A DNA stretch of 32,651 nucleotides, taken from positions 1 to 32,651 of the forward strand of contig CAKZMA010000922.1 of NCBI GenBank assembly GCA_937127375.1, given 5' to 3'. This DNA is from an uncultured Coleofasciculus sp. GTDB taxonomy: Bacteria; Cyanobacteriota; Cyanobacteriia; Cyanobacteriales; Coleofasciculaceae. Positions within the stretch are counted from its first letter, which is position 1; each line of letters starts with the position of its first letter. Both the position numbers and the translations under genes were made by a program. The notes beneath the pieces are model-generated. The model had not been told where the DNA came from and made no database searches. It saw only the letters and a program-made list of their open reading frames with translations. Below are positions 9,293 to 30,014 of the stretch, piece after piece.

Positions 9293-9317
9293 AGAGGGTA
9301 AATCCCTCTTTTTTTTT
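9293..9317 (+). terminator. rho-independent terminator of rpsA
   Basis: AGAGGG (9293-9298), loop TAAAT, CCCTCT (9304-9309), then an unbroken T-run to 9317. This is a textbook intrinsic terminator about 50 nt after the rpsA stop. Its T-run overlaps the stop codon of the convergent GT4 gene, so the two transcription units meet here. Confidence 0.9.
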
Positions 9318-10473
9318 AAAGATAGTTTTGCAGGACTTCAAGCGTTTTCTGTCCAGTTTTTGCCCAGCTGAATTGACGGGCGCGTTGAAGTCCGAGGGTG
9401 CTAAGGCGCGATCGCAGTTGGCTGTCGGTGGCGATAGAATGCATGGCTGCTGAGAGTTCCAGGGTGTTGTAAGGGTTCACTAGGATAGCTGCATCACCAG
9501 ATACTTCCGGGAGGGCGGAGAGGTTGGAGGTGATTACCGGAGTCCCACACGCCATGGCTTCTAGCACCGGGAGTCCAAAGCCTTCCCAGAGACTGGGGAA
9601 GATAAGTGCGATCGCGTTGTTGAGAAGTATGGGTAGTTGGTTGTAGGGAACATAGTTGAGGAATTTCACTTGATGGCTTAAGCCGAGGTGGTTGGCTTGG
9701 GCTTGCAGCTTAGGGGTGTAGCGTCGATCACTTGACCCGGCGATCCACAGTTCATAGTCGCCGCAGTTAGGCAAATTAGCAAAGGCGTTGATCAGTCGGT
9801 GTAGGTTTTTATAGGGGTCATGGCGTCCGATGTAGAGGAAATAGGGGTTATAGTTAGCTGAAGGTGCTTGATTGGGCTTGTTTTGAAACGCAGAGGGACG
9901 CAGAGGTTGGCGCAGAGGGGCGCAGAGGGGGTGAAAGTGGTTGGCGTCGTAAGCTAGGGGAGTGGAAGTGATTTTGGCGGCGGGGATATGGTAAAAGTCG
10001 GTAATGTCTCTGGCGGTGGCGGTGGAGTTACAGAGGATATGTTGGGCTTGGGTGAGGACTTGGGGAATATAGTAACGGAAGTAGGGGGTGAGGGGAGAGT
10101 TAGGTTTGGGAAAGCGGAGTGGGATTAGGTCATGAACCATTACCACGTAGCGACAATGGGTATTAAGGGGGGCTTCGGGGATAGGAGAAAAGAGGAGGGG
10201 AGAGTTTAAGCTGTAGTAGAGGCGGGGAAGTTGGAGTTGAGTCCATAACAGGCGACGGAAGTGACCTTTTGTTCCGTGGGCGGGGCTGAGATTGGCGGGA
10301 ACAGGGTAGTCGATAAAGTCAGAGGTGAGGGGAAAGTGGTTTGACGCGAGGGGTGAAATCAGTAGGGTAGGATTCAGGGGTTTTAAGTAGGGGAATAGGT
10401 TGGCAGCATAGGTGGCGATGCCAGTGGGTTGAGAAAATAGAATAGAGAGGTTGACTAACAGGGGAGAAGACAA
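9316..10473 (-). CDS. GT4 family glycosyltransferase
   Basis: Encodes 385 aa with a GT-B fold. The N-terminal acceptor half begins [26 protein letters not shown]. The nucleotide-sugar half begins near [21 protein letters not shown] and carries the family GT4 EX7E motif in [24 protein letters not shown]. It probably transfers a sugar from an NDP-sugar to the lipid-linked glycan on the cytoplasmic side; donor and acceptor are unknown. The start appears to be TTG, since no ATG or GTG fits. Between the domains, the segment [16 protein letters not shown] is encoded by four CGCAGAGG units (9888-9930), apparently a cyanobacterial short repeat that entered the gene in frame. It is the last gene of the minus-strand cluster, 26 nt after another GT4 gene. 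Confidence 0.9.
9888..9930. repeat. CGCAGAGG short repeat inside a glycosyltransferase gene
   Basis: CGCAGAGG occurs at 9889-9896, 9899-9906, 9911-9918 and 9921-9928. Such CGCAGAGG-type units are usually found between genes in cyanobacteria. Here they are translated into the Pro/Leu/Arg-rich linker between the two GT-B lobes. Confidence 0.85.
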
Positions 10474-10499: not shown

Positions 10500-11666
10500 T
10501 TAACTGAGTAGAGATTTATAGGCGTTGAGGGTTTCCTTCGCCGTTCTTTCCCAAGAAAATAGTTTAGCTCTTGCTTTGCCTTTTTGAATTAAGTCCTGGC
10601 GGAGTTGAGAGTCACTGATGATTTTTAAGATAGCCTCAGCTAACTCCATGGGGTCGTTGGGATCAATGAGAATAGCCGCATCTCCAGCGACTTCAGGGAG
10701 AGAGGAGGTATTGGAGGTAACCACAGGGGCGCCTAGAGTCATGGCTTCGAGAACCGGAAGACCAAATCCTTCGTAGTGGGAGGGATAGACAAAAACATCA
10801 GCGTTAGAGTAGAACAAGGCAACATGTTCATCACAGAGGTAGTCAAGATGATGGATATGGTGATTCCAGGGAGAGTTCTCAATGGCGGCAAATATCGGTT
10901 GATAATGCCACCCTTTTCTACCAATTAAGACTAAGTGATGCTCTAGTTTAAGGTTTTGTTTGAGTAAGTTAAATGCATTAATTAAGGTTTGGATATTTTT
11001 TCGGGGTTCTATGGTACTCACAAACAGAAGGTAAGGTGGTGAAAAGTCATAGTCAATGGATTCCATTACCTGATCCCTAAGATTGTTTTTCAAGTAACCT
11101 GATGAATAGCGGCTCGCCAGGGGAGTTACATAAATCTGTTGATGATTGACTCCTAAATAGTTGACAATATCGCGTTTAGAGCTTTCGGAAATCGTGAGAA
11201 TTAAGTCAGTCCACTGTAAGTATCTCTTAATTCTTTTTTTATAGGTGGCAACCGTGGCATCAATATACTCAGGATATTTAATAAAGCTTAAATCATAAAT
11301 ATTAATAAGTCTCCGGCTGTTTTTACAGGGATATACTGAATAATTGGTTCCCTGTACTATATCAGGTGAACCCAAGCAATTCTCAAAATACTGGGAAACC
11401 GCAACGTTAAATGGAAGAGATAATATAAGATTTGAGACTCTAACGGGTATAGGAATTAAGTAAAGAGGAGAAACTTGTTGTAGAGAGTATGGAAGAGAGA
11501 AACAACCACGCAGCAAATTTTTGAAGCCCGGTTGGTAAGCAATGCCTAGTTGAAAATTTTCCTGGACTTGTAGCTTGAGTAGGGATTCGATTAAATTTAA
11601 TACGTAAAGACCCACTCCACTAGGATTGGGTTGAACAGGAGTGGCATCAATGACAATTTTTAGCAT
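10500..11666 (-). CDS. GT4 family glycosyltransferase
   Basis: Encodes 388 aa with a GT-B fold. It begins MLKIVIDATPVQPNPSGVGLY, with the Gly-rich acceptor-lobe loop. The donor lobe includes YLLFVSTIEPRKNIQTLINAF and the EX7E motif in [25 protein letters not shown], followed by SSLPEVAGDAAILIDP. It resembles mannosyl- or rhamnosyl-type GT4 enzymes, but the sugar is not readable from sequence. Overall layout is shared with the downstream GT4 (9316-10473), so the two may be old duplicates acting on successive linkages. It lies 15 nt after the GtrA gene and 26 nt before the next GT4, consistent with one operon. A cytoplasmic or membrane-peripheral location is expected. Confidence 0.9.
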   Translation of the reverse strand: MLKIVIDATPVQPNPSGVGLYVLNLIESLLKLQVQENFQLGIAYQPGFKNLLRGCFSLPYSLQQVSPLYLIPIPVRVSNLILSLPFNVAVSQYFENCLGSPDIVQGTNYSVYPCKNSRRLINIYDLSFIKYPEYIDATVATYKKRIKRYLQWTDLILTISESSKRDIVNYLGVNHQQIYVTPLASRYSSGYLKNNLRDQVMESIDYDFSPPYLLFVSTIEPRKNIQTLINAFNLLKQNLKLEHHLVLIGRKGWHYQPIFAAIENSPWNHHIHHLDYLCDEHVALFYSNADVFVYPSHYEGFGLPVLEAMTLGAPVVTSNTSSLPEVAGDAAILIDPNDPMELAEAILKIISDSQLRQDLIQKGKARAKLFSWERTAKETLNAYKSLLS

Positions 11667-11681: not shown

Positions 11682-12089
11682 CTAATTTTTGATTTTAAAT
11701 GACCAATAAAAGTTTAGGATAAAATTGCTAATAGGAATTAAAACTAGGGCAAGTAATTGGGCAATTCCATACCAGATCGAAAAAACATTCACCGCTAGAA
11801 ACATAATTATCGTATTTAATAATAAGCCCATCAAAGAGACAGTCAGGTAACGTGGGAAAGAAACGCGATGTCTATTCTTCGCTCTAAATGTCCACTTATA
11901 GTTCAGGATATAAGAAATAATCACAATAATGATAAATGCTAAAGCTGAACTAATTACGGGGTCATAGCGCAAAAGTTCTATGAATAAAGTTAAAAGAAAT
12001 ACATAGATCCCCGTACCTATCCCTCCAACCACTGCATATCGAATAAATTTATGGGTAAGCTTGGCTTTTCTGTATTTTTTAAATCTCAT
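11682..12089 (-). CDS. GtrA family membrane protein
   Basis: I chose the ATG at 12089 (135 aa, MRFKKYRKAKLTHKF...); a TTG four codons upstream is possible. Four membrane helices fill the protein: IRYAVVGGIGTGIYVFLLTLF, ISSALAFIIIVIISYILNY, VSLMGLLLNTIIMFLAV and AQLLALVLIPISNFILNFYWSF. FIRYAVVGG near the start and the NYKWTFR and FYWSF segments are typical of GtrA. GtrA/GtcA proteins are thought to flip undecaprenyl-phosphate-linked sugars to the outer face of the membrane for GT-C enzymes. A CsbB/GtrB-like GT2 (12979-13926) lies two genes upstream and two YfhO-type GT-C genes are further up, so a full three-part set is present. Confidence 0.9.
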   Translation of the reverse strand: MRFKKYRKAKLTHKFIRYAVVGGIGTGIYVFLLTLFIELLRYDPVISSALAFIIIVIISYILNYKWTFRAKNRHRVSFPRYLTVSLMGLLLNTIIMFLAVNVFSIWYGIAQLLALVLIPISNFILNFYWSFKIKN

Positions 12090-12143
12090 GGGTTTAACCA
12101 ACGATTAATCATGACCAGATACCTGTATTCGATCATATTGAGT

Positions 12144-12986
12144 TCAGCGTTTACTAGCAATGACATACATAATGTCATACAAGTTCAGATAGAAATACCA
12201 ATCCGTCAATCGGAGTCGCTTCAGCCAATGATACATTTTGGGGTTATTTTGCCGCAGCACAAAAATATTATAAGCAATATTGTCCACACTGCGATAAAAA
12301 CCACAATACCGATTGTAGACAACATCAAATCCATAATTGTTTAGCATTTTTTCCAGTGTTTTTCTAGAAAAGTAATGGACATGAGTCGGAGGATGAATTA
12401 ATCGCCAATTGCTTCTTCTGATTCGTGCATTCAGACTGCTAATGTCACCGGTTGTGATAGCCAGAAGCCCACCGTTATTCATCTGTTTGCTGATCTTTTC
12501 AATATAGAAGTGAGGTTGACCTATATGTTCAATTGTATCCCACATACAGACAACATCAAACCTCTGCTCACCAAAGTCATGCTTCAGCAAATCTGACTGA
12601 ATCGCATCGAGGTGCAAGGTTTCACGGGCATATCGAACGCCTTCTTCGGTAATATCGATTCCCTGAACGTGATCAAAGTAATCCTGGGCAAACTCCAGGA
12701 AAAATCCGTAAGCACAGCCAATTTCCAGTAAATTCCGGTGAAACGTGGGGTTGAGAAATCTCTGCAGTGTTTTCAGTCGTAACTTGAAATTATTCTGCAT
12801 AACTTTTTTATCCGCGACATAATCGCTATACTCTTCTCCGAAGAAATAATTTCGGCTATAAAGTTTAAATAGTTCGGCATCAGTCAGGTTTAAATCAGCA
12901 ACCGTATGACCACACCGCTGGCATTTTAGCAGACCTTTATAGACCGATTCATGCTGCGTCGTTCCACAAACAATACACTCATTCAT
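12144..12986 (-). CDS. zinc-ribbon class I SAM methyltransferase
   Basis: Encodes 280 aa. The N-terminus has a zinc-ribbon-like set of four Cys (Cys4, Cys7, Cys22, Cys25: ECIVCG...LKCQRCGH). A class I methyltransferase domain follows, with motif I LLEIGCAYGFFLEFA near residue 86 and the later DVVCMWDTIEHIGQP and GGLLAITTGD strands. This layout is frequent among sugar and polysaccharide methyltransferases. It probably methylates a sugar or a glycan-lipid intermediate; the substrate is unknown. Its start overlaps the 3' end of the GT2 gene by 8 nt, so the two are very likely co-translated. The last 60 residues are aromatic and positively charged and could contact the membrane. Confidence 0.87.
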   Translation of the reverse strand: MNECIVCGTTQHESVYKGLLKCQRCGHTVADLNLTDAELFKLYSRNYFFGEEYSDYVADKKVMQNNFKLRLKTLQRFLNPTFHRNLLEIGCAYGFFLEFAQDYFDHVQGIDITEEGVRYARETLHLDAIQSDLLKHDFGEQRFDVVCMWDTIEHIGQPHFYIEKISKQMNNGGLLAITTGDISSLNARIRRSNWRLIHPPTHVHYFSRKTLEKMLNNYGFDVVYNRYCGFYRSVDNIAYNIFVLRQNNPKMYHWLKRLRLTDWYFYLNLYDIMYVIASKR

Positions 12987-13926
12987 CGCGATGAAAATTT
13001 ACCTTGTCTTCAATAATGTAGTGGGGTCTACCTTTAACTTCATCAAAAATTGCGCCAATATACTCTCCAATTATACCTAAAAAAATGAGTTGTACTCCAC
13101 TAAATATTGACACTAAAAAGACTAGAGTTGTCCACCCCGAAGGCAGGGAGGCATAAATAAAATATTGAACGACGGATATAAGGGCATAGATTAAGCCAAA
13201 TAGGGCAAAAATAAATCCTGTAATAATGGCGGCTTTTAGCGGTTTTTTACTAAAGGAAACAACCCCCTCTAATCCAAACTGAACCATCCGGTTGAGGGAA
13301 TATTTACTCCGACCGGCTTTCCGTTTTCTGACTTGAAAGTAAATACTTGTGCTTCTAAATCCCACCCAACTAAAAAGACCTCGCAGAAATTGGTTTCTTT
13401 CTCGAATTTTATGTTTAAAGGTTTTGGCTACACGGTTAGATATTAATCTAAAATCGGCAGCACTTTCATTAATGGGGACGTCTGAGAGTTTGTTGATGAT
13501 TTTGTAGAATAGTTTAGATGTCAAACGTTTAAAAATACTAATATCCTTGGAATCTTGGCGAATTGTATAAACAATATCATAGCCTTGTTCATACTTCATC
13601 AACATTTTGGGAATCAATGAAGGGGGATGCTGCAAATCGCTATCTAGCATAATCAAAACATCAGAATCACTATGATCGATTCCGGCTAGTAGTGACATTT
13701 GATGACCAAACCGAGACGACATCAATAGAATCTGTACAGCTTTATCCTGTTCAGCGATTGATTTTAATATTTCAAAACTCGCATCGGTGCTGCGGTCAAC
13801 CACAAATAAAATTTTGGACTGATAACGCGGTGATAATCCAGCTAGCACCCCTGTAAGTTCCGTGTAGAAATCGTTGATTACCTCTTCTTCGTTGTAAACC
13901 GGGCTAATAATCGTCAAGGTTTTCAT
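12979..13926 (-). CDS. CsbB/GtrB-type GT2 polyprenyl-phosphate glycosyltransferase
   Basis: Encodes 315 aa. The GT-A domain fills about residues 1-225, opening TIISPVYNEEEVINDFY, with DSDLQHPP (Asp95/Asp97) as metal/donor-binding motif and the QFLRGLFSWVG and RKAGRSKYSL segments typical of CsbB/GtrB/DPM-type enzymes. Two C-terminal membrane helices follow (AAIITGFIFALFGLIYALIS and TTLVFLVSIFSGVQLIFLGIIG). Members load a sugar from an NDP-sugar onto undecaprenyl phosphate on the cytoplasmic side. The usual DDGSTD segment reads VDRSTD here, a departure worth noting. The gene lies 17 nt after the reductase-like SDR and overlaps the next methyltransferase gene by 8 nt. The likely products would be flipped by the GtrA protein and used by YfhO-type enzymes. 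Confidence 0.9.
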   Translation of the reverse strand: MKTLTIISPVYNEEEVINDFYTELTGVLAGLSPRYQSKILFVVDRSTDASFEILKSIAEQDKAVQILLMSSRFGHQMSLLAGIDHSDSDVLIMLDSDLQHPPSLIPKMLMKYEQGYDIVYTIRQDSKDISIFKRLTSKLFYKIINKLSDVPINESAADFRLISNRVAKTFKHKIRERNQFLRGLFSWVGFRSTSIYFQVRKRKAGRSKYSLNRMVQFGLEGVVSFSKKPLKAAIITGFIFALFGLIYALISVVQYFIYASLPSGWTTLVFLVSIFSGVQLIFLGIIGEYIGAIFDEVKGRPHYIIEDKVNFHRDE

Positions 13927-13943
13927 CGTCGATTTGAGCGGTT

Positions 13944-14861
13944 CTAATGGTGGGCATTGCTCTCCGAAAAGATTGAATGTATCACTGTCTCAAGGTTGGT
14001 TTTAGGAGTATAACCCAGCAGCGTTTGCAATTTTTCAATGCTACCATAATGAACGGGAACATCAACAGGTTTGAATCGTGCGGGATCGGTTTGAATGTCT
14101 ACATCGATATTAGCTATCTCGATCAGCTTGTGCAGTAGATCACTCATGAGTATACCTTGTCCCGAACAAACATTAATCACCTGTCCATACGCTGTTGGTG
14201 TCCGGATTAATTGCCAGTAAATTTTAATCACTTCTTGGATATCAATAAAATCTCTGGAACTGCTTAAATTGCCGACGTTGATGATTGAAGGGTGTTGACC
14301 TTGGGCGATTGCCGTAATCTGTTTGACAAAGCTTTGGATAGACAGATACTCGGGCATACCAGCACCAATTATATTAAACGGTCTGACCATAACTAAGGGT
14401 CTCCCTTGTCTGGATAAGGCAAGTCCCATTAACGTTTGGGAAAGTTTACTAATCCCGTAGTGACTATAGGGACAGGTTGGCGTCTGTTCATGAATGGGAA
14501 CTTGTTCAGGACTCACTAAACCATATTCAGCCGATGTCCCCACTAACAGGACAGGACAATTCTCATAGCCTGTAATCTCTAAGGCATGCAAGAGTGTCGC
14601 GGCATAGACGGTATTAACCTGGTATAACAACGTGGGGTTAGTAGAACGGGCGACACCAGCTAAGTGAAACACATAGTTTGGCTGGACAGCTTTAATGGTG
14701 TTTGCCAAAGCTGAAACCTCAGCCGTATCCGTTAAATAGTAATGATGTTCAGAAGCAGGTTGAGTGCCAAGGGTATGAATTTCTATTCCCTGACGTTCTA
14801 GATAAGGAATCAGATGCCGTCCGCAAAACCCACCCCCACCTGTGATTAGGGCTCTTTTCAT
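13944..14861 (-). CDS. NAD(P)-dependent SDR, GDP-4-keto-6-deoxymannose reductase-like
   Basis: Encodes 305 aa of the extended short-chain dehydrogenase family. The Rossmann motif TGGGGFCG (Gly8/Gly11/Gly14) is at the N-terminus. The catalytic Tyr135-xxx-Lys139 lies in PYSHYGISK, and the active-site Ser in VGTSAEYG, a pattern close to RMD-type reductases (GSSxxYG). Proteins of this type reduce or epimerise NDP-4-keto-6-deoxysugars to the finished sugar. Its ATG overlaps the TGA of the nucleotidyltransferase gene (ATGA), which in turn follows a 4,6-dehydratase-like SDR, so it is probably the last step of a three-gene nucleotide-sugar pathway. GDP as the nucleotide is inferred from resemblance only; an epimerase role is possible. 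Confidence 0.85.
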   Translation of the reverse strand: MKRALITGGGGFCGRHLIPYLERQGIEIHTLGTQPASEHHYYLTDTAEVSALANTIKAVQPNYVFHLAGVARSTNPTLLYQVNTVYAATLLHALEITGYENCPVLLVGTSAEYGLVSPEQVPIHEQTPTCPYSHYGISKLSQTLMGLALSRQGRPLVMVRPFNIIGAGMPEYLSIQSFVKQITAIAQGQHPSIINVGNLSSSRDFIDIQEVIKIYWQLIRTPTAYGQVINVCSGQGILMSDLLHKLIEIANIDVDIQTDPARFKPVDVPVHYGSIEKLQTLLGYTPKTNLETVIHSIFSESNAHH

Positions 14862-15574
14862 AGATTGGGCAGAAATTCAGCTTGTCTTGATTCAAATATT
14901 TCAGTGGCTGTTCGATAGTCGTCCATTCTGCCAATATCAAGCCAGTAACAGGATTCGCGATAACAATGAACTGGATGACCATCTTGGCATAATTTCAGCA
15001 TCAGGTCAGGAATATCTAGATAGTCACCAACCTTTAAATAAGGCTGTATGGCATTTTTATTAAGAACATTCACGCCCATACTGACATCAAAATGATAGGT
15101 AGGTTTTTCCACGTAACGCACTAGCTTTCCTTGATCATCCGTTTCCAGGACGCCAAAATCGACCTTCACGTCCCGTTGATAGATACCAATGGTGGCTGCT
15201 GCACCCTTATCTTTATGAAAAGCAATTAGATTCTGGTACTTTAACGTCGTCATTAAATCACCATTCATAACCAGAAAATCATCCTCTAATTGCTCCATCG
15301 CCAGAGCAATTGGACCGGCGGTTCCCAAAGCCCGTTCCTCGAATGAATAGCTAATATTCAAGCCCAGACGTTCACCCTTTTGAAAAAAAGCCTGAAGCAA
15401 TTGGCTTAAATATCCCACAGCGAGGATGACATCCGTGATTCCTGCACCTTTGAGTTGCCGTAAGATAATCTCCAAAATCGGATAGTCACCCACGGGCATT
15501 AGTGGCTTAGGAAGCACAGTGGTGTAAGGATGTAGCCGAGTTCCTCGACCACCGGCGAGAATTAAAGCCTGCAT
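14858..15574 (-). CDS. sugar-1-phosphate nucleotidyltransferase
   Basis: I chose the ATG at 15574 (238 aa), which gives the family start MQALILAGGRGTRL and has GAGG 9 nt upstream; a GTG five codons earlier overlaps the previous stop. The fingerprint GGRGTRLHPYTTVLPKPLMP includes the catalytic Arg and Lys23. FLVMNGDLMTT supplies the metal-binding Asp, and FGVLETDD and VEKP are further NTP-transferase landmarks. The enzyme activates a sugar-1-phosphate with an NTP, giving an NDP-sugar and pyrophosphate in the cytoplasm. It lacks the C-terminal beta-helix acyltransferase or CBS additions of larger relatives. Flanked by and overlapping two SDR genes, it probably makes their substrate. GDP- or CDP-sugar are both possible; the sequence does not decide. 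Confidence 0.9.
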   Translation of the reverse strand: MQALILAGGRGTRLHPYTTVLPKPLMPVGDYPILEIILRQLKGAGITDVILAVGYLSQLLQAFFQKGERLGLNISYSFEERALGTAGPIALAMEQLEDDFLVMNGDLMTTLKYQNLIAFHKDKGAAATIGIYQRDVKVDFGVLETDDQGKLVRYVEKPTYHFDVSMGVNVLNKNAIQPYLKVGDYLDIPDLMLKLCQDGHPVHCYRESCYWLDIGRMDDYRTATEIFESRQAEFLPNL

Positions 15575-15585
15575 TGATTTAGACC

Positions 15586-16575
15586 TCACACAGCATACTG
15601 CTCTGATTTAAAAAGAGTTGGGTTATTTGAGACAAAGGTAATTACTTCTTTCAACCCAGCCTCCAGTGAATACTGGGGTTGCCAGCCAGTTCTTTCCCTG
15701 GCTTGTGTATTGTCACAGATGAGCTTGAACACTTCGCTTTTACTCGGACGCACTCGACGGCTATCGAGAACAAGGGGTTTGTCACTCTCCATCAAGGAAA
15801 GAATTGTTTTGGCTAACTCTCCAATCGTAATCCCTTTGCCAAAACCGACATTAGTCACCTTGCCAATCGTCTGTTCCGATTCTGCCACGTTGATAAATCC
15901 CCTCACTGTGTCCTTAACATAAGTCAAATCGCGTACTGGGTCTAGTGATCCTAAACGGATCTGATTTTGGGTTAAGGCTTGACTGATGATGCTGGGAATC
16001 ACGGCGCGGGCTGACTGACGTGGACCATAGGTATTAAAGGGTCGAATTGTGGAAACGGGTAAACCAAAGGATAGATAATAGCTTTCAGCCATTTTATCAG
16101 CACCAATTTTAGACGCCGAGTAGGGGGATTGACCCTGCAAGGGATGGTTTTCGTCAATGGGGGTATAGATAGCCGTACCGTAAGTTTCTGAGGTTGAGGT
16201 ATGAACAATCCGTTCGAGGTCGAAGTTTCGTCCTGCTTCTAGGACATTCATCGTGCCTTCGATATTGGTGCGAATATAGCTGCGGGGAGCAATATAGGAA
16301 TAAGGTATCCCGATTAGCGCCGCCAGATGAAAAACAACGTGCTGGTTTTTGACCTGGCGATTGACGAAATCACTATCCTCAATATTGCCAGCGACGGCAT
16401 TCAGGGCGGCTCGATGTTGGGGCGACAATAATTCCAGATTACCCCAATTGTTTTGCGAGTTGTAGTGGATTATCGCTGTAACTTGAGCGCCTGCTTCGAG
16501 CAACGCTTCACATAGATGACTACCAATGAAGCCACCTGCGCCAGTCACGACAACGTTTTTGCCAGTCCACCTCAT
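15586..16575 (-). CDS. NAD-dependent sugar 4,6-dehydratase-like SDR (LegB-like)
   Basis: Encodes 329 aa, extended SDR family. NAD-binding TGAGGFIG (Gly12/Gly15/Gly18) is at the N-terminus. The active site shows Thr128-Ser-Glu130 in TSTSETYG and Tyr152-xxx-Lys156 in PYSASK. The Thr-x-Glu pattern fits 4,6-dehydratases rather than simple epimerases. NNWGNLELL and SYIAPRSYIRTNIEGTMNVLEAG resemble the LegB/LLPSF_EDH group, which dehydrate NDP-N-acetylglucosamine. The ATG has a good ribosome-binding site (AGGAG-type) and opens the left operon after a 244-bp gap. No LegC-type aminotransferase is seen in the window, so a legionaminic-acid pathway is not supported here. A 6-deoxy-hexose product is the more modest inference. 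Confidence 0.87.
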   Translation of the reverse strand: MRWTGKNVVVTGAGGFIGSHLCEALLEAGAQVTAIIHYNSQNNWGNLELLSPQHRAALNAVAGNIEDSDFVNRQVKNQHVVFHLAALIGIPYSYIAPRSYIRTNIEGTMNVLEAGRNFDLERIVHTSTSETYGTAIYTPIDENHPLQGQSPYSASKIGADKMAESYYLSFGLPVSTIRPFNTYGPRQSARAVIPSIISQALTQNQIRLGSLDPVRDLTYVKDTVRGFINVAESEQTIGKVTNVGFGKGITIGELAKTILSLMESDKPLVLDSRRVRPSKSEVFKLICDNTQARERTGWQPQYSLEAGLKEVITFVSNNPTLFKSEQYAV

Positions 16576-16600
16576 TCCTCACTCCTTACCTAACTGATGG

Positions 16601-16662
16601 AGAAGACTTGCGATCGCGCCATCCCTCAATGGGCTGCAATACAGAGTACATAGTAGTCTTCT
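16601..16662 (-). promoter_or_regulatory. probable promoter region of the left operon, with an 8-bp inverted repeat
   Basis: AGAAGACT (16601-16608) and AGTCTTCT (16655-16662) are exact inverted repeats just upstream of the LegB-like SDR start at 16575. A HIP1 octamer lies between them. The gap after the YfhO genes is the natural place for a promoter driving the left operon, but no firm -35/-10 pair is visible. Confidence 0.3.
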
Positions 16663-16717
16663 GGATGTACATTGTCGGTATCATACCATGATGACTGGAT
16701 CAAGGAAGTCTAAATCG

Positions 16718-16810
16718 AATGGCACGCTGATTAAGGCTGGTGGGCAGTACCCATCCTACGCTATATTAAGCGTTTTGCTGATCCGCAAATGCACGCTTTT
16801 CAGTGCCATT
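16718..16810. mobile_element. MITE-like 93-bp element
   Basis: The ends are near-inverted repeats: AATGGCACGCTGA on the left and TCAGTGCCATT on the right, differing by an indel. Inside is GGTGGGCAGTACCCATCCTACG, a member of the GTGGGCA-TGCCCAC palindrome class also seen at 30000-30014. There is no coding capacity. It ends 10 nt from the stop codon of the YfhO-type gene. Confidence 0.4.
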
Positions 16811-16819
16811 GAGTCTAAA

Positions 16820-19648
16820 TCAATTAAGTCGTTCCTGGCTACGCGACAGTTTCCAGCCTAAATAGGCTAATAAAACCAGAGACGCACTACTTACGCCCAA
16901 GCCAATATGAAAACTGACCGGATTGAACTCAAAGGTAACCCGATGCTTTCCGGCGGGAACTTGAACACCTCGCAGGACATAGTTGGTTTGAAAGATAGGT
17001 GTCGTTTTACCATCAATTGTGGCTCTCCAACCGGGGTAATAAACATCACTTAATACCAGGAAAGCTGGAGAGGTTGAATCCGTCTGAATTTCGATTTGAC
17101 TATTTGATAGACTGATAATTTCGGCAGTCGCTGCCACGTCTGGATTCTGGGCTTTAAACCTTAGCGGTGCTTCAACCAAAGCCACTTGCTCAGGTTTGTA
17201 AGTGCGCCCATCCGGTAATCGAGAGGATTGAATCGCTTCGAGGACTTGATTAGGCTTTGCACTGATAACTTCTGGGACTAACCAGGCTCGAGGCATTGCC
17301 TGTAAATTTTCATAAACCATGGTTTGGTTAATATCCTCAACATGATGCCAACGTGCGGTGTTTGATAATTCGGTGATTGGATAAGATTGATTCGTGGTTT
17401 TGTCAATAACACTGATTTTTTGGAGGCTAATAGAGCCAACGGGACTTATCCACTTAAGCGATAGACGTTTCACATTGTTTAACGAGTTCAGAGGAAGAAG
17501 ACTTACATACTGATGACCCTGACAGCTGGGAAAAGACTCTCGCACTACCGGAAAACTTTCAAAGATTGGCGCTTTCCGATGTTTCATTTGAGGACGTACA
17601 TCGGTACAATCATAAGCCCATTCCGACGTATCTCTCCCAGCCCGCAGGCTTTGAGTCATACTCTTGCCATTGGTATCACGAACTTCAATACGCAATACTT
17701 CAGTATTATCCGCTATTTGTGCAGCACACCCCAATGAACTCACAATACCAATAGCGGTTGCCGGAATAGAATCAGGAACCTGAAAATCCACAGAATTAGG
17801 TTGGACAACTCCACAACCTGAACCCAAGGATAGGCTTAAATTATCCTGAGACCAAGAGACGCCGTTGGCATCAGAAAGGGTTGATACTTTAGGGATAAAT
17901 ACATACCGTATTGATAGAATATCTAAACTGTGATTAGACCGAAATCCCCAGTTTCCCTGCACCTGTCCAGCGGGGTTCATCCCCAGGACTTGGCTAATTC
18001 TAGACAGAATGAGAGGTCCATAGCCACTGGAATTAGGAATCCCCCATAGCCGTGATAAATTAGGAGCTAATGCGTCACGACCAGCATACCCTCCTTGAAT
18101 AGGTAAGATACGTTGGTGATTTTGATTGAGACGCTCCTTGTACGTTTGGGCAACTACAGTTGGTTGAAGAGCGTTTTGGTGTGGGGATGATTCTTGCCAT
18201 ATATAAAACCAGCCAAAACTACCCAAGTCAATGATTAAAACTAAAACCAGCAGCGGTTCAATTAACTTCAATGTTCTCCACTTGCCCCAGATGAGCAAAA
18301 TCGCTACAGCGATCGCGAAAATGACTAGAGGCACTGCCAAGGCTCGATTAGACCAAGGCAGCAATGTGAGTTGCCGAAAACCAGCCTCACTCGCTTGGGC
18401 TTTAAGCTGATTGGCAAAACTGAAAATTCCGATTAAACTAATCAGCATTACGCCCGTGCTGACTGACACTATTTTCAGGATAAGACGATTCGATACAAGT
18501 TGCTTTTGGATACCGACAACCCCTAACCCGGCTAACACGCTGACCCCTAAACTCATCTCCATAAAATGACGTGTTGGTGCGCGAAATTTGTTGTAAGCTG
18601 GGACATAATACATAATCCGAGCCAGGGGAGTGGCATCACCAAGACTGAGCAATAGGGCAAACACACTTACACCAATCCAAAACCATTTAAGTGGCTTGCT
18701 CGTAGTTGAGAAAAATCCGATAACAGCTAGCAGAATTGGCAGGAGTCCAATGTAGCCCGTTAACTCAGAGAGATTGGCTTCACCAAAGTAGTTAGGAACA
18801 TTGTAAAATGAGTCTGGGAAGTAGTAACCAAATAGATAGGGGAAAAGGAGTTGAATAATTTGATTAACGGGTAAAGCAATACCGGCAAACTCAGAAAAGG
18901 TCAGCTTAGCTCGTACTGTCAGATGACTGAATTCCAGAGTCGGAATAATTTGAATTGCGGCTAAGGCGATACCCAAACTTAATACTAATACACACCATTT
19001 GTAATAGTTCCAGCGACCAACTGGAGCCGAATTCCCTCGAACTCCAATATAAAAGATACTTAACCCAATTCCATAAACAAACATTTGTGGATGTCCAGCC
19101 AGAAAATTACAGGCGACCCCACAGACGCCAATGATTAGCCAGTGAGCTGTTAGGTTATCCCGCAATTTTTCCCACGTCCAGATCAGCAGTGGTATCCATA
19201 GAGCGCTATGAATCATTGCCGTGTGCGTCAAATGTGACATCATGAAGCCACTCATGCCGTAGACAAGACCACTGACAAGAGCAGCTAACGTTGAACCCGT
19301 CAGGGTATAAACATAACCATAAGCAAAACAACTCGCTAAGATATAGGCAGAACTAAAAAAAACGTTCCAAGAATTGGGAATCAGGGAAAAAAAGAGAGAG
19401 AGAGGATACCAGGTTTCAACTTGCGGATCTGCCGCAACGGGAAACCCAGACAGGATCAAGTTTGTCCACAGTACTCTGGGTGAATAAAATGCCGGGACAT
19501 AGTAAATTAATCCATCTGAAGGCGCCAGTAATCTTTCGGAAAATATGACAGGGGAAAAGAATAATGTGTAGAACGCTGGAAAAAATAAAATCGGCAACAG
19601 GACAGAACTGAATTGGCTCCCTGGTTTAAAATATAGGTTGAACGGCAT
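16820..19648 (-). CDS. YfhO-type GT-C membrane glycosyltransferase, paralogue A
   Basis: Encodes 942 aa. The first ~480 residues hold about a dozen hydrophobic helices. The first extracytoplasmic loop carries APSDG (Asp45) and AADPQVETWYP (~72-82), matching the acidic loop of YfhO/GT-C enzymes. The C-terminal half is a large extracytoplasmic beta-rich domain ending in SDVYYPGWRATIDG and a final membrane helix (GLGVSSASLVLLAYLGWKL). In Bacillus and Listeria, YfhO transfers a sugar from undecaprenyl phosphate to lipoteichoic acid; the acceptor here must differ because cyanobacteria lack teichoic acids. The gene follows paralogue B by 19 nt. The 3' end shares a near-identical DNA stretch with paralogue B (16872-17053 versus 19735-19916). 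Confidence 0.87.
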   Translation of the reverse strand: MPFNLYFKPGSQFSSVLLPILFFPAFYTLFFSPVIFSERLLAPSDGLIYYVPAFYSPRVLWTNLILSGFPVAADPQVETWYPLSLFFSLIPNSWNVFFSSAYILASCFAYGYVYTLTGSTLAALVSGLVYGMSGFMMSHLTHTAMIHSALWIPLLIWTWEKLRDNLTAHWLIIGVCGVACNFLAGHPQMFVYGIGLSIFYIGVRGNSAPVGRWNYYKWCVLVLSLGIALAAIQIIPTLEFSHLTVRAKLTFSEFAGIALPVNQIIQLLFPYLFGYYFPDSFYNVPNYFGEANLSELTGYIGLLPILLAVIGFFSTTSKPLKWFWIGVSVFALLLSLGDATPLARIMYYVPAYNKFRAPTRHFMEMSLGVSVLAGLGVVGIQKQLVSNRLILKIVSVSTGVMLISLIGIFSFANQLKAQASEAGFRQLTLLPWSNRALAVPLVIFAIAVAILLIWGKWRTLKLIEPLLVLVLIIDLGSFGWFYIWQESSPHQNALQPTVVAQTYKERLNQNHQRILPIQGGYAGRDALAPNLSRLWGIPNSSGYGPLILSRISQVLGMNPAGQVQGNWGFRSNHSLDILSIRYVFIPKVSTLSDANGVSWSQDNLSLSLGSGCGVVQPNSVDFQVPDSIPATAIGIVSSLGCAAQIADNTEVLRIEVRDTNGKSMTQSLRAGRDTSEWAYDCTDVRPQMKHRKAPIFESFPVVRESFPSCQGHQYVSLLPLNSLNNVKRLSLKWISPVGSISLQKISVIDKTTNQSYPITELSNTARWHHVEDINQTMVYENLQAMPRAWLVPEVISAKPNQVLEAIQSSRLPDGRTYKPEQVALVEAPLRFKAQNPDVAATAEIISLSNSQIEIQTDSTSPAFLVLSDVYYPGWRATIDGKTTPIFQTNYVLRGVQVPAGKHRVTFEFNPVSFHIGLGVSSASLVLLAYLGWKLSRSQERLN

Positions 19649-19667
19649 AGAATTTATGTTCCATTTG

Positions 19668-22568
19668 TTAAGTCATGCTTGGGTTATCTATCTTGTTCTG
19701 GCTTCGCGAAAGTTTCCATGCTAAATAACCCAACAAAACCAGAGACGCACTACTCACGCCCAAGCCAATATGAAAACTGACCGGATTGAACTCAAAGGTA
19801 ACCCGATGGTTTCCGGCGGGAACTTGAACACCTCGCAGGACATAGTTGGTTTGAAAGATAGGTGTTGGTTTACCATCAATTGTGGCTCTCCAACCGGGGT
19901 AATACACATCACTTAACACCAGGAAAGCCGCAGAAGTGGAATCCGTTTGCACCTCAACGTGGGTATTCGATAGACTCAGAACTTGGGCAGTCGCTGCCAC
20001 GTCGGGATTTTTGGCGTTAAAGTTGAGGGGTGCTTCTACCAAAGCCACCTGAGTCGGTTCGTAAGGGCGCCCATCCGGTAATCGAGAGGATTGAATCGCC
20101 TCAAGTACCTGCTTAGGCTCAGCACTGACAACCTCTGGAACTAACCAGGCTCTAGACATAGCTTGCCGATTCTCATAAACATGAGCGCCCCAGTAGCCTC
20201 CACCATTGGAGGGTTTTTCCCCAGAAGCTGGAATATCCGGCATCCGCCGCCACCGATTTGGGTTACCTATAGCGCTGGAAACTTCTGTAATCGGGTAGGA
20301 TTGCCCGGTTGACTGATTAATCAGACTCATCTTATGAAGGGTAATTGCACCCGATGCGCCAATCCATTCCAACTGGATGTCTTGAACCGGATTCATCAGG
20401 TTGAGGGGTAGCACGCTGAGGTAATTGTGGCGCTCACAATCGGGAAAAGAGGGTCGTTTATGGGGAACACTGCTAAAGATGGGCGCTCGTTTATGCTGCA
20501 TTTGAGGTCGTACATCGCTACAGTCATAAGCCCATTCCGCCGTATCTGTGCCAGCACGCAGCGTCTGAGTTACAGTCTCTCCGGTGACATCCTGTACTGA
20601 AATTCGCAAGACTTCTGCATCATTAGACAACCCTTGGGAACAAGCCATGGAACTGACCAGTCCAATCGCGGTGACTTGAGGCTGAGAGGGTACATAAAAT
20701 TTAACCGAGTTCGACGGATTAGTCAGACAATCTTGCCCCAGACTGAGGTTCATATCTCCACTATGCCAACCGATGCCTTGGCTGTTGGTTATAGGGGTCA
20801 ATCCCCAACGAGGGATGAAAATATAGCGCACAGCCATCAGATCCAACGTCCGGTTCGAGACTCCCGCCCATTGTCCCCAAACATTTCCGGCTGCTCCCAT
20901 GGGAAATAACTCACTATATCGGGATAACATCAACGGTCCGTAACCGCTAGCGCTGGGAACTCCCCAAATCCGGGAGAGATTGGGCGGCATTTCATGGAAA
21001 TTTCCGCTTGCCCCTCTCGGCGTTAAGATCCGCTGCTGACGTTGAGTCAGTTTATCTCGGTATTGGGCAATAACAGTCGTCGGGGTTAAGGCATCTTGAC
21101 TCGGTGCACCATACCGCCACTCATAAAACCAGCCGAAACTGCCGATATCAATCACTAGCAACACCAATACCAGAACACCCCATTGAGAGGGTTTGGCGTT
21201 GATTGAATAGAGAACCACGGTTATCGCCAGCAAAAAAATGACTAGGGGAACTCCTACCGCAGGATTCGTCCAAGGCAGAAAACTCAGGGGTTGAGAACCC
21301 GCTGCTATGGCTTCTGACTCTAGCGCACCGGAAAAAATGAAAATACTGGTTAAGGCAATGAGGAAAATGCCAGCACTAATCTTAATGATCTTAAAGCGCA
21401 ACAGTTTGGAAACCGCTTGGGTTTGAATCGCGGCAACCCCCAACCCTGCCAGTACACTCACTGCCAAACCCACTTCCATCAGGTGCCGCGCTGGGGCGCG
21501 AAACTTGTTGTAGACAGGTAGATGGTAGGTCAAATAAGCCAACGGTTTCCCCAAGGCGAGTAAGAGGGCGATCGCACCCGCACCTAACCAAAACCGGGCA
21601 ATGGGTCGATCCCGATGTACGATAAATCCAACTATCGCCAGCATTAGAGGCAGTAATCCCATATAACCCGCCATTTCGGTGAAATTCCAGCCACCAAAAT
21701 AAGGGGGATCGTAAAAGGAATTGAACGGTCCACCGCCACCAAACAGATAGGGAAACAGAAACTGCAGAATTTGTTCTATTGGTAGCGAAAAGCTAATAAA
21801 CTGATTGAACGTCATCCGCGATCGCAATCCCAATCCTGACAACTCGGCTGTCGGGATCAGTTGAATCGCCGTCAGACTTATACCTAGGGCGATAACCGCC
21901 AAATAGGTTCTATAGTACCTCCAGCGACCCACGGCTGCTTTCCCACCGAGACAAAGAACATAGATTGTACTCAGACCCAAGCTATAAAAGGAAATTTGGG
22001 GATGTCCTGCCAAAACACTACAACTCACAGCCAAAGCACCGATAACAAACCACAGGGGACGGATGCGATCGCGCAGCCTGTCTGCTGTCCAAATTAGCAG
22101 GGGCATCCACGCCGCCCCATGAATAATCACCGTATGACCCAAATGAGCGATCATAAAGCCACTCATCCCGTAGATGATACCACTGACTAAGGCTGCCAAT
22201 CGCAACTGGGTGAGGCTGTAAACATAGCCATAAGTAAAGCAACTCGCTAATACATAGGCACAGAGAACAAAGGCATTCCAAGAGTTAGGAATAAGCGAAA
22301 AGAATAGAGAAATCGGATACCACGTCTGAGTCTGGGGATCAGCCGCTACCGGGAATCCCGACAGAATCAAATCCGTCCATAAGGTGCGAATCGAGTAGAA
22401 CGCGGGAACATAAAAAACAATTCCATCTCCTGGGGCAAGCAATCGCCCTGAGAAGATGACTGGCGCAAAGAAAAGGGTATAAAGGAGTGTAAAAAATAGG
22501 ACGACTGAGAGCGGATGAAGGATGCCAGACTGAAATAATTTTTTTGTGCTGAAGCTAATCAATTTCAC
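19668..22568 (-). CDS. YfhO-type GT-C membrane glycosyltransferase, paralogue B
   Basis: Encodes 966 aa, with the same plan as paralogue A: an N-terminal multi-helix GT-C region with APGDG (Asp48) and AADPQTQTWYP, a big extracytoplasmic domain, and a final helix. Alignment by eye shows conserved blocks throughout (for example YGMSGFM, LAGHPQ, YNKFRAP, IWGVPSASGYGPL, WAYDC). Compared with A it has an insertion of about a dozen residues (GEKPSNGGGYWGAH) before VYENRQAMSRAWLVPEV. The GTG start is preceded by GAGG. It sits 8 nt after the double GT4 gene and 19 nt before paralogue A. Function is inferred as in A: sugar transfer on the periplasmic side. Whether the paralogues differ in sugar or acceptor cannot be told from sequence. 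Confidence 0.87.
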   Translation of the reverse strand: MKLISFSTKKLFQSGILHPLSVVLFFTLLYTLFFAPVIFSGRLLAPGDGIVFYVPAFYSIRTLWTDLILSGFPVAADPQTQTWYPISLFFSLIPNSWNAFVLCAYVLASCFTYGYVYSLTQLRLAALVSGIIYGMSGFMIAHLGHTVIIHGAAWMPLLIWTADRLRDRIRPLWFVIGALAVSCSVLAGHPQISFYSLGLSTIYVLCLGGKAAVGRWRYYRTYLAVIALGISLTAIQLIPTAELSGLGLRSRMTFNQFISFSLPIEQILQFLFPYLFGGGGPFNSFYDPPYFGGWNFTEMAGYMGLLPLMLAIVGFIVHRDRPIARFWLGAGAIALLLALGKPLAYLTYHLPVYNKFRAPARHLMEVGLAVSVLAGLGVAAIQTQAVSKLLRFKIIKISAGIFLIALTSIFIFSGALESEAIAAGSQPLSFLPWTNPAVGVPLVIFLLAITVVLYSINAKPSQWGVLVLVLLVIDIGSFGWFYEWRYGAPSQDALTPTTVIAQYRDKLTQRQQRILTPRGASGNFHEMPPNLSRIWGVPSASGYGPLMLSRYSELFPMGAAGNVWGQWAGVSNRTLDLMAVRYIFIPRWGLTPITNSQGIGWHSGDMNLSLGQDCLTNPSNSVKFYVPSQPQVTAIGLVSSMACSQGLSNDAEVLRISVQDVTGETVTQTLRAGTDTAEWAYDCSDVRPQMQHKRAPIFSSVPHKRPSFPDCERHNYLSVLPLNLMNPVQDIQLEWIGASGAITLHKMSLINQSTGQSYPITEVSSAIGNPNRWRRMPDIPASGEKPSNGGGYWGAHVYENRQAMSRAWLVPEVVSAEPKQVLEAIQSSRLPDGRPYEPTQVALVEAPLNFNAKNPDVAATAQVLSLSNTHVEVQTDSTSAAFLVLSDVYYPGWRATIDGKPTPIFQTNYVLRGVQVPAGNHRVTFEFNPVSFHIGLGVSSASLVLLGYLAWKLSRSQNKIDNPSMT

Positions 22569-22576: not shown

Positions 22577-24967
22577 TCACACCAAATTCAACTGAGTTAA
22601 ACGGTTAAACAATCGCTGGGATATCACCTGCCAATCAAATTTCTCTTGAACATACTGTCGGGCATTTCTAACACGAAGTTCTTTATTTGTCAAGTTTTCG
22701 GCTGTTAGATCCGCGATCGCCTCAGCAAAGTCCTCGATATCAACCACGACACAGTGTTTTCCCCCTTCTACCCCCAAACCCCTGACACCAATGGGTGTCG
22801 AGATCACCGGAATCCCAGAGGCAAAGTATTCTAGCATTTTCAGATTAGTGCCAGAGCCAAAAGTGACAGGGTTGAGTGCCACATCAGCCAAACCTAGGAT
22901 AACCGCTTTAGTTTCGTCATCAACGACATCCATAAAACCGACATTGGCAGGTCTTTTTTCATGCTTAAACGCCAAACCTACACTGCCAATAATTAGAAAA
23001 TTCACTTGAGGGAGTTGCTCAGCTATCTGAAAAATAGAACCCACGGCTGCCAGATTTGGACTGTGCCAGCTTCCCATAAACAATGCCGTAAAACTACTAG
23101 CATTTAAGCCTAACTTAGATTTTTGGCAATGGCGCTCTTCTAGAGAAACATAATTCACCGTTTCTCTATCCACACCATTCGGCACTTCCAAGATTTTGCT
23201 GGAATCTACACCATAAATTTGGTTTAAACGTTGAGCATCCTCTTGACAACACACCAAAATTAAAGTACTAGCCTGACAGCATTCCTGCTCAACCTGGCGA
23301 GTCGCGTCAAGTAATTTCTGCCCCGTAGGATTATCAGGCAGAACTCTTTGTTTTAGCACCACTTCTACATCTTGGGCTTCATACCATAAGGGCTGATTAC
23401 TAACCGCTTGAATCGCTGGCAATAGATAAGGGTGACAAGCCACAATAAAATCGGACGTTGCCGTAGACGCTCTTAACGCCTCAACATAAGCCGGCGTCAA
23501 CTGATAAAGTTGTGGCATCACGATATCGGTAATTGGCACTCCAACCTGTTGCTCAATCCCTAACTCTTCCCGTTGATGCTGATCTGACTTGGGAATTCGT
23601 ATTTCCCACACGCCTGGGGCAATTTCACCCCTAAACGGGACTTCATGAGCGTGAGTAAACGTGACAAATTCGATATCGAACCAACGGGCGAGATAACGGT
23701 ATAGATGAAACACCCGAATTTGTCCGCCTCCCCGAGGCGGGAAAACAGGAAACGTGAGGGCAACTGTAATTTTTTTGCGCTCGTTTCGGGCTGTAGTCGT
23801 GATGTATGGCTTGGCGTCACCTAGCAGTTTGGCAACCGTATTGTCCCAGGTAATATCTTGCACCAACTTACGACCGATAAGCCCCATCTGTTGCGCTTCC
23901 TGTACATGTTCACACAGATAATCAATCCGTTGGGCGATCGCCTGAGGGTCAGGTGGAACACAATAGCCTGTTTCCCCATTCCGAACAAACTCATTCGGAC
24001 CTCCGGCATCGGTGGTGGTGAGTACAGGCTTACCACTCATCATCGCTTCTATGGTCACTAGCCCATAATCTTCGTTGTCGGGAACATAGGGTACAACTAA
24101 AGCATCAGCATACAGCGCCGTGAGTTGCTGATCATTAACAAACCCCAGAAAAACAATTCGTTGATCATCGCCTGCGAGTTGCTTGAGACTATCCGCATCA
24201 GGACCAGTTCCAGCAATTTTCAGGTTGATATTGGATTTAACATACTGCATCGCCTCCACTAATAAGCGAACCCGTTTGGGTCCATCGAGTCGGCTGACGG
24301 TGAAGAGGTAATCGCTATTACCTGAGTGAAAAAACTTCAGATTTGAGGGAGGATAGATGACATGAATAGAACTATCAACTGGAAAGTAATTGGCGCGATT
24401 GGCTACAGTATGAGAGATGGCAGCATACTTGGCAATTGCGTCCGGTTTCAAGGCAATACCATCCAAAAAATGCACAATCTCTCGTGCGAGTGAACCGGGA
24501 AATTTGAAGGTATCTAGGGGTAAATCTGGGCAGCACCGTAGCTGTTCTAACCGATCAAAGAATTCGTTCAGTGCTGTTCTTAACCCTTGATTATGCCCCA
24601 TGAATTCCTGTAGACCCCTAATCTCTTTATGCGGGGTCACATAGTTTTCTGGGCAACCCGTCAAGTGATAAGTATCATATAATCCGCGCAACCGATGTAA
24701 CATATAGCAAACGTGGTTGCCATGTTGCACCATCCAAGCCGGATACTTTCCTGAAATGATCAGATCGAAATGAGTCAGGTCAAGGTTTGAGAAATGCCTG
24801 TAGCTATCGAGTAACTCCCAGAAATTTCGTTCTGGACTGGGTATTTTCACCAACTCAGCCTGATGGGGAGTGTCCTGGTTAATCGAATTTAAGAGTCCCC
24901 ACCAGAGATTTTCTGCACCCCCAATTGTAAACGGAACTGGACTCGGAGCAATAATCGCAATTTTCAT
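22577..24967 (-). CDS. double-headed GT4-GT4 glycosyltransferase
   Basis: Encodes 796 aa, about twice a normal GT4 enzyme. The first module (about 1-390) begins MKIAIIAPSPVPFTIGGAEN and carries EX7E in NEDYGLVTIEAMMSGKPVLTT. The second (about 398-796) begins KITVALTFPVFPPRGGGQIRV and carries FGSGTNLKMLEYFASGIPVIST. Each module seems complete, so two linkages may be made by one polypeptide, as in bifunctional O-antigen polymerases such as WbdA. Module 1 resembles the separate GT4 at 25903-26943 (TDAGGPNEFV/TDSGEPLEFV and the following GxTGxxVxPxPxAIAQ pattern), suggesting duplication and fusion. The gene starts 3 nt after the upstream methyltransferase stop. No membrane helix is seen. Confidence 0.88.
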   Translation of the reverse strand: MKIAIIAPSPVPFTIGGAENLWWGLLNSINQDTPHQAELVKIPSPERNFWELLDSYRHFSNLDLTHFDLIISGKYPAWMVQHGNHVCYMLHRLRGLYDTYHLTGCPENYVTPHKEIRGLQEFMGHNQGLRTALNEFFDRLEQLRCCPDLPLDTFKFPGSLAREIVHFLDGIALKPDAIAKYAAISHTVANRANYFPVDSSIHVIYPPSNLKFFHSGNSDYLFTVSRLDGPKRVRLLVEAMQYVKSNINLKIAGTGPDADSLKQLAGDDQRIVFLGFVNDQQLTALYADALVVPYVPDNEDYGLVTIEAMMSGKPVLTTTDAGGPNEFVRNGETGYCVPPDPQAIAQRIDYLCEHVQEAQQMGLIGRKLVQDITWDNTVAKLLGDAKPYITTTARNERKKITVALTFPVFPPRGGGQIRVFHLYRYLARWFDIEFVTFTHAHEVPFRGEIAPGVWEIRIPKSDQHQREELGIEQQVGVPITDIVMPQLYQLTPAYVEALRASTATSDFIVACHPYLLPAIQAVSNQPLWYEAQDVEVVLKQRVLPDNPTGQKLLDATRQVEQECCQASTLILVCCQEDAQRLNQIYGVDSSKILEVPNGVDRETVNYVSLEERHCQKSKLGLNASSFTALFMGSWHSPNLAAVGSIFQIAEQLPQVNFLIIGSVGLAFKHEKRPANVGFMDVVDDETKAVILGLADVALNPVTFGSGTNLKMLEYFASGIPVISTPIGVRGLGVEGGKHCVVVDIEDFAEAIADLTAENLTNKELRVRNARQYVQEKFDWQVISQRLFNRLTQLNLV

Positions 24968-28208: not shown

Positions 28209-28255
28209 AACCGGATAAGTCGTCGGACTGTCATTAAAGTTAACGGTTGAGATTA

Positions 28256-28290
28256 GGCAACAGGCAAAAGGCAAAAGGCAAAAGGCAACA
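28256..28290. repeat. 7-bp tandem array GGCAAAA
   Basis: Five perfect-register heptamers are seen: GGCAACA, GGCAAAA three times, GGCAACA. They lie between the wzt-like gene and the ATG of the coiled-coil methyltransferase gene, where they fill part of its leader. The same GGCAAAA heptamer appears at the edge of the psbB-psbT palindrome. Confidence 0.9.
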
Positions 28291-29655: not shown

Positions 29656-29757
29656 CACACCATTTGGGTTTTAGTAACCTCTAGAGGACATCAGCTCACG
29701 CTAATCGCGTCGCTGTTCAATTCACACACCACACTAAAACAGTATCAAATAAACTTG

Positions 29758-29776
29758 CCTAGCGCACCTCGCTAGG
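29758..29776. repeat. 7-bp-stem palindrome
   Basis: CCTAGCG, loop CACCT, CGCTAGG. A perfect small hairpin in the repeat-rich gap, about 100 nt upstream of the wzt-like start. Confidence 0.6.
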
Positions 29777-29812
29777 TCTTGGGAGCATGTCAGAACAGAA
29801 AATGTTCTTGGA

Positions 29813-29842
29813 GGTTGGGTGGGGCGTAAACGTTACCCAGCC
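29813..29842. repeat. GGTTGGGT/ACCCAGCC palindromic repeat
   Basis: GGTTGGGT (29813-29820) and ACCCAGCC (29835-29842) are complementary with one G-T wobble around a 14-nt loop. The pattern resembles GGTTGGGT-type palindromes that recur in cyanobacterial genomes. Confidence 0.6.
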
Positions 29843-29999: not shown

Positions 30000-30014
30000 G
30001 TGGGCATTGCCCAC
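30000..30014. repeat. GTGGGCATTGCCCAC palindrome
   Basis: Two 7-bp arms, GTGGGCA and TGCCCAC, surround a single T. A related, less perfect form lies inside the MITE-like element at 16718-16810. Confidence 0.7.

Follow-up and report, generated by a model that had tools for sequence, protein, structure and literature searches.

The 32,651-nt window analysed here (the whole stretch of contig CAKZMA010000922.1 from a Coleofasciculus sp., to which all coordinates refer) contains a gene cluster combining a GtrA-family protein, a glycosyltransferase of family 2 (GT2) and two large YfhO-family membrane proteins, designated A and B. A methyltransferase gene and a putative sugar-donor cassette complete the cluster, which is composed of the following genes.

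11682..12101, minus strand: GtrA-family membrane protein (PF04138), proposed flippase for sugars linked to undecaprenyl phosphate (Und-P)
12144..12986, minus strand: S-adenosylmethionine-dependent methyltransferase (PF13489) with an N-terminal CxxC..CxxC motif, proposed to methylate the donor sugar
12979..13926, minus strand: GtrB/CsbB/PgfS-type GT2 with a DxD motif (D95, D97) and C-terminal hydrophobic helices, proposed Und-P-sugar synthase
13944..14861, minus strand: short-chain dehydrogenase/reductase (SDR), nearest to GDP-6-deoxy-lyxo-4-hexulose reductase (RMD; 2pk3, E 4e-47; 6x3b, E 1e-35)
14858..15589, minus strand: sugar-1-phosphate nucleotidyltransferase, nearest to mannose-1-phosphate guanylyltransferases by sequence comparison
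15586..16575, minus strand: LegB-like NAD-dependent 4,6-dehydratase (TIGR04180, 438.7 bits) with TSTSETYG and YxxxK motifs
16820..19648, minus strand: YfhO-family GT-C protein B (942 aa; PF09586, 56.9 bits), proposed Und-P-sugar:polysaccharide glycosyltransferase
19668..22568, minus strand: YfhO-family GT-C protein A (966 aa; PF09586, 79.6 bits; AlphaFold model; invariant D48)

All of these genes lie on the minus strand. The proteins named in a first-pass annotation of the window are at the places it gave, and its GtrA, GT2 and two YfhO proteins all scored above the Pfam cut-offs. The GtrA open reading frame (ORF) starts at either TTG 12101 or ATG 12089, the latter giving the first-pass coordinates 11682-12089. 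Most neighbouring genes overlap or are less than approximately 45 bp apart, and the sole larger gap, of 244 bp, separates the YfhO pair from the LegB-like gene; co-transcription of the cluster is therefore likely.

The PF09586 gathering score of 28.5 was exceeded by both YfhO proteins. The strongest stretch of the match was the last 80 profile positions, and protein A additionally matched profile positions 88-439. Protein B is 58% identical to protein A, and both reading frames are intact. Since a sequence search against the PDB returned only chance ribosomal matches for the YfhO proteins, a fold search was needed, and protein A alone was modelled with AlphaFold on a 10-sequence alignment (mean pLDDT 73.8, pTM 0.73). 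VIA-align 2 matched the model to AftD (Z 25.7 over 588 residues, rmsd 5.2), yeast STT3 (Z 24.7), PglB (20.8), AftA (19.7) and ArnT (17.9), and Foldseek also ranked AftD at the top (E 1.7e-9). In the model, protein A clearly has a GT-C fold, with a membrane core at residues 1-510, extracytoplasmic beta domains at approximately 580-927 and a helix at the C-terminal end. Across 10 divergent YfhO sequences, D48 is fully conserved and D77 almost so; the model places D48 after the first membrane helix, as the acidic residue that GT-C enzymes carry in the first extracytoplasmic loop. Both residues are kept in protein B when it is aligned with its modelled paralogue. This conservation is as expected of a GT-C enzyme, and catalysis is predicted. 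The first-pass assignment of the two proteins to YfhO/GT-C was thus borne out by PF09586 for both and by the fold for protein A.

The GtrA protein matched PF04138 at 78.5 bits (gathering score, 26.1) over profile positions 1-117 of 117, as expected of this family of small membrane proteins; a sequence search of GtrA against the PDB gave no match. The GT2 matched PF00535 at 83.7 bits, and its best PDB relative was Synechocystis GtrB sll0501 (5ekp; E 8e-64 over residues 4-307), which has been shown to make Und-P-glucose (PMC4728340). A GT-A domain, LDSD at residues 94-97, C-terminal helices and homology to the characterised 5ekp together place this GT2 among the GtrB/CsbB-type polyisoprenyl-phosphate enzymes. 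Its best NCBIfam model was PgfS (NF047588), whose equivalog cut-off of 500 it did not reach (281.2 bits). The usual VDDGSxD motif is altered in the GT2s of the window, UBA8803, Lysobacter and Silanimonas (VDRSTD, VDQSSD, VDPGGD and MDPSPD); among the aligned enzymes, these variants occurred only in loci with a nucleotidyltransferase cassette (the window, L030, L033 and L034), and to judge from the alignment they mark a subtype of GT2 that goes with this cassette. We considered the VDxSxD variant as a mark of a GDP-linked donor and rejected it, as DPM1 uses GDP-mannose and carries the ordinary DDG motif.

The SDR, nucleotidyltransferase and second SDR genes form a cassette between the YfhO and GT2 genes on the same strand. 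The LegB-like dehydratase matched all 297 of 297 positions of TIGR04180 at a score below the curated cut-off of 475, and is best described as a close LegB relative rather than an assigned member. Because the nucleotidyltransferase is nearest to guanylyltransferases, the reductase to RMD and the dehydratase to LegB, the predicted product points to a GDP-activated 6-deoxyhexose of the D-rhamnose type or an isomer. The methyltransferase and GT2 genes overlap over 8 bp, and this suggests that the donor sugar is methylated. L-acofriose, an O-methylated 6-deoxyhexose and one of the unusual sugars of cyanobacterial lipopolysaccharide (LPS) O-chains, is cited in PMC4148955 from Anabaena variabilis (Weckesser 1974), and we hypothesize that the predicted methylated sugar is of this kind. 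The proposal of the first-pass annotation that this cassette supplies the donor agrees with its dedicated position and with its nearest relatives among GDP-sugar enzymes.

The YfhO family is rare in cyanobacteria, with a match in 17 of 386 genomes (and in 3 of 39 relatives). A tree built from 30 YfhO proteins placed both window copies in a seven-member cyanobacterial clade (SH-aLRT 100) together with the proteins of UBA8803, Trichocoleus FACHB-40, Fischerella PCC 73103, G219 and G094. All loci of this clade hold the ABC-transporter ATPase Wzt, a Wzt-side methyltransferase, a GT2 and YfhO, and in every one except UBA8803 GtrA lies beside or close to the GT2. The arrangement Wzt-methyltransferase-GT4-YfhO-GT2-GtrA (GT4, glycosyltransferase family 4) is common to the window, Fischerella, Trichocoleus, G094 and G219, so that GT2, GtrA and YfhO are linked in Wzt loci of the window and four other cyanobacteria (L028, L029, L037 and L039). 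Of the 20 YfhO-bearing genomes, 5 have GtrA at most 10 kb from YfhO against an expected 0.07 (P ~4e-9), under a null of uniform placement that ignores shared ancestry, so that the five loci are not five independent events. The first-pass expectation of conserved linkage in relatives was therefore confirmed. Homologues of the GtrA-proximal methyltransferase adjoin GT2 or YfhO in L028-L031 and L033, and the Wzt-side methyltransferase is conserved next to Wzt in L028-L030, L033, L037 and L039. No GtrA was located near YfhO in the 14 cyanobacterial genomes whose YfhO lies outside the clade; YfhO in cyanobacteria is thus not one system. A weak YfhO match in G293, a 2.1-Mb cyanobacterial genome, was dropped as a further linked case when the profile of the window YfhO family failed to confirm it; close to it lies a fused GtrA-GT2 protein of 336 aa (L042:6249-7259).

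The locus of the closest relative, UBA8803, shares the GT2 (86% identity), the donor cassette (77-85%) and the methyltransferase (73%), and has a single YfhO. The slot adjoining that YfhO (L030:12963-14219) is occupied by a membrane acyltransferase (Acyl_transf_3), a different kind of modifier of exported polysaccharides, which we count in favour of polysaccharide modification. Around the YfhO genes of Lysobacter and Silanimonas, the nucleotidyltransferase (41-43% identity), dehydratase (27-31%) and GT2 (39-42%) recur. Fischerella, Trichocoleus, G219 and G094 have a different GT2 (32-34% identity where measured) and no nucleotidyltransferase at the locus. The GtrA proteins of the Fischerella and Trichocoleus loci are 49-53% identical to that of the window. 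Between these loci the donor module is thus exchanged, whereas YfhO and GtrA are retained.

The surrounding genes belong to a polysaccharide locus.

9316..10473, minus strand: GT4 glycosyltransferase (Glycos_transf_1), 64% identical to the Trichocoleus protein at the equivalent place
10500..11666, minus strand: GT4 glycosyltransferase (Pfam), 64% identical to the Trichocoleus and 74% to the UBA8803 protein
22577..24967, minus strand: tandem GT4 glycosyltransferase of 796 aa with two GT4 domains (profile search)
26940..28274, minus strand: methyltransferase adjoining Wzt, possible chain-end modifier (profile search)
28369..29658, minus strand: Wzt, ABC ATPase (PF00005, 83.8 bits) with Wzt C-terminal domain (PF14524, 118.5 bits), exporter of the presumed acceptor polysaccharide
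30210..32195, minus strand: Wzy_C/O-antigen ligase-type membrane protein (PF04932, 69.4 bits)

The Wzt protein is 67-71% identical to those of Fischerella, Trichocoleus and UBA8803. The polysaccharide made by the same locus is the simplest choice of acceptor and, given this context, the most likely one. Teichoic acids are not known from cyanobacteria, and the first-pass annotation had argued from the missing lipoteichoic acid (LTA) that the acceptor would be new. That argument was not supported: multi-component Und-P-sugar systems are established for LPS and O-antigen in Gram-negative bacteria (PMC8035078), gmlABC of Klebsiella acts on an ABC-exported (wzm-wzt) O-antigen, with gmlA partly dispensable (PMC12797948), and in five cyanobacteria the present genes lie within a Wzt locus of O-antigen type.

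We therefore propose, with a probability of roughly two-thirds, that the cluster encodes a transmembrane glycosylation system of several components, which specifically serves the surface polysaccharide (O-antigen) of its own locus. The family assignments, the GT-C model of one YfhO protein and the linkage are observations, from which we infer the reactions, the donor, the flipping and the acceptor. The nucleotidyltransferase, LegB-like dehydratase and RMD-like reductase would produce a nucleoside diphosphate-6-deoxyhexose, most likely GDP-linked, which the GT2 would load on Und-P at the cytoplasmic face; the adjacent methyltransferase would methylate the sugar before or after loading. GtrA would then move the lipid-linked sugar to the periplasmic face, where the two YfhO enzymes, through the loop aspartate D48, would add it as a side group to the Wzt-exported polysaccharide, each probably at its own position.

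Several observations weigh against this proposal. The scores of the GT2 and the LegB-like enzyme, far under and under their respective family cut-offs, mean that neither substrate can be read from the family, and Fischerella-type GT2 loci, which have no nucleotidyltransferase cassette, probably use another sugar. Wzm was detected neither beside Wzt nor elsewhere in the incomplete genome (90% complete), where only copies of at most 30% identity were present. In UBA8803, a 77%-identical Wzm, its match split over two frames with a stop, shares a contig with Wzt at a distance of approximately 38 kb, and the Wzm of the source organism may therefore be located past the contig end. The UBA8803 locus also lacks GtrA, which means that the three genes need not all be clustered together; in UBA8803 a flippase encoded at another site may do the work, or none may be needed, in line with the partial dispensability reported for gmlA.

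The system could act on another exported glycan, such as a capsule, a released exopolysaccharide or the LPS core, made through Wzx/Wzy or another route, instead of on the Wzt chain. The window encodes a Wzy_C protein and a Wzt without an adjoining Wzm, the UBA8803 locus continues into Wzy-like and other polysaccharide genes, and Wzm/Wzt of Synechocystis can serve exopolysaccharide instead of O-antigen (reviewed in PMC4390846). However, Wzm directly adjoins Wzt in the Fischerella and Trichocoleus loci, which carry the same YfhO clade, so ABC export is the usual setting and we regard this alternative as unlikely. Protein glycosylation is less probable still, with only a slim chance that the GT2 and two YfhO proteins modify surface, S-layer or pilus proteins as in the PgfS-PgfM1-PgfE-PgfM2 system. 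The top NCBIfam match of the GT2 was PgfS (281 bits), both YfhO proteins matched PgfM1/PgfM2 weakly, the structural matches included the protein glycosyltransferases STT3 and PglB, and the pgf genes likewise encode a single GT2, a sugar epimerase and a pair of large membrane proteins (PMC5856776). The PgfS score, however, is far below the equivalog cut-off, the match to AftD, a polysaccharide enzyme, was equally good, and a Wzt polysaccharide locus is the context in every close relative.

It is very improbable that the genes are decayed or unrelated neighbours, with a redundant or inactive YfhO tandem and a GT2-GtrA pair serving a GT-C enzyme elsewhere in the genome. Such a view could draw on the UBA8803 locus without GtrA and on the recombination in the tandem described below, but the two YfhO frames are intact with the loop aspartate kept, and four further cyanobacteria show the same linkage.

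Sliding identity and segment trees along the YfhO genes revealed discordant histories. At residues 1-510, protein A grouped with UBA8803 (support 100/100) and a grouping of A with B was rejected (p-AU 4e-6); at residues 515-795, B grouped with UBA8803 (89/98) and A with UBA8803 was disfavoured (p-AU 0.04); and at residues 796-960, A grouped with B (97/97) and A with UBA8803 was rejected (p-AU 0.0013). The segment limits were set after viewing the sliding plot, which makes these p-values optimistic, the first and last segments being strong regardless. Nucleotide identity between the two genes was 86% over the last 480 bp, locally up to 97%, and about 50-70% over the remainder; third-position identity reached 0.94 in one 50-codon block of the 3' part and was 0.24-0.58 before residue 788. 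The breaks lie near the border of the membrane core and the outer domains. By these trees the genes are mosaics in which core, periplasmic domain and C-terminus each have a history of their own; the three discordant trees thus indicate that the A and B copies recombined, most recently at the 3' end. The single YfhO of UBA8803 looks like a fusion of an A head and a B tail. Whether the tandem serves as a diversification module is doubtful: recombination might swap the core, the periplasmic acceptor-side domain and the C-terminal domain into new combinations of donor and acceptor site, varying O-antigens as phage gtr cassettes vary serotypes, with the UBA8803 copy as one such fusion product. Multiple copies are common for the YfhO family, and two to three genes also lie side by side in a Blastocatellia contig (L031:3867-9815), G136 (L052:8422-16236) and G348 (L053:8635-13381).

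The closest functional parallel to our proposal is gmlABC of Klebsiella pneumoniae O2, which galactosylates side chains of an ABC-exported O-antigen and comprises a proposed flippase, an Und-P-sugar synthase and a side-group transferase inside a wzm-wzt O-antigen locus (PMC12797948, PMC7556023). Here, in contrast, the transferase is of the YfhO family and present in two copies, the donor cassette and methyltransferase are built in, and the flippase candidate is of the GtrA type, whereas GmlA is described as another type. CsbB-GtcA-YfhO of Bacillus subtilis, Listeria and Staphylococcus aureus consists of the same three protein families (PMC8035078, PMC7389260); however, its acceptor is LTA or wall teichoic acid, its sugar is N-acetylglucosamine rather than the probable 6-deoxyhexose, and its genes lie outside ABC O-antigen loci. 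The gtrA-gtrB-gtr(type) cassettes of Shigella and Salmonella phages likewise modify O-antigen by means of GtrA, GtrB and a polytopic membrane transferase (PMC3259042). Unlike the present cluster, they are phage-borne, transfer glucose in Shigella and use a different transferase family. Their acceptor is a Wzy-type O-antigen. The Pgf system of Streptococcus mutans resembles the cluster in its GT2, its two large membrane proteins (weakly similar in sequence) and its sugar-nucleotide enzyme (PMC5856776), but it modifies proteins, and its operon has no GtrA and no polysaccharide export genes. Component 27, a 'YfhO-like' family from a survey of the AlphaFold database, comprises large membrane proteins of bacteria that are annotated as YfhO and have STT3/PglB as relatives (PMC10584680).

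The type of machine is thus known, and its combination with its own donor genes and two recombining transferases seems not to have been described before in cyanobacteria; in the open-licence literature, where absence is weak evidence, we found nothing relevant on YfhO in cyanobacteria and nothing on cyanobacteria for GtrA/GtrB with O-antigen. What appears new is a YfhO transferase of predicted function in an O-antigen-type setting, with a built-in donor cassette and a recombining tandem. How cyanobacteria build their surface glycans has been tested in only a few studies (PMC4390846). The locus offers a concrete gene set for donor synthesis, methylation, lipid loading, flipping and transfer that predicts an L-acofriose-like side group, and it would add Gram-negative O-antigen, as a likely target, to the teichoic acids and proteins that YfhO-type GT-C enzymes modify. 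Culturable relatives that carry the locus include Fischerella muscicola PCC 73103 and Trichocoleus sp. FACHB-40.

At the place equivalent to the two-domain GT4 gene (22577-24967), relatives have GT4 proteins that are built differently. The 550-bp gap between Wzt and the Wzy_C gene (28369-30210 region) contains no ORF of at least 80 aa, and within it lies the palindrome GTAGAGACGTTGCATGCAACGTCTCTAC.

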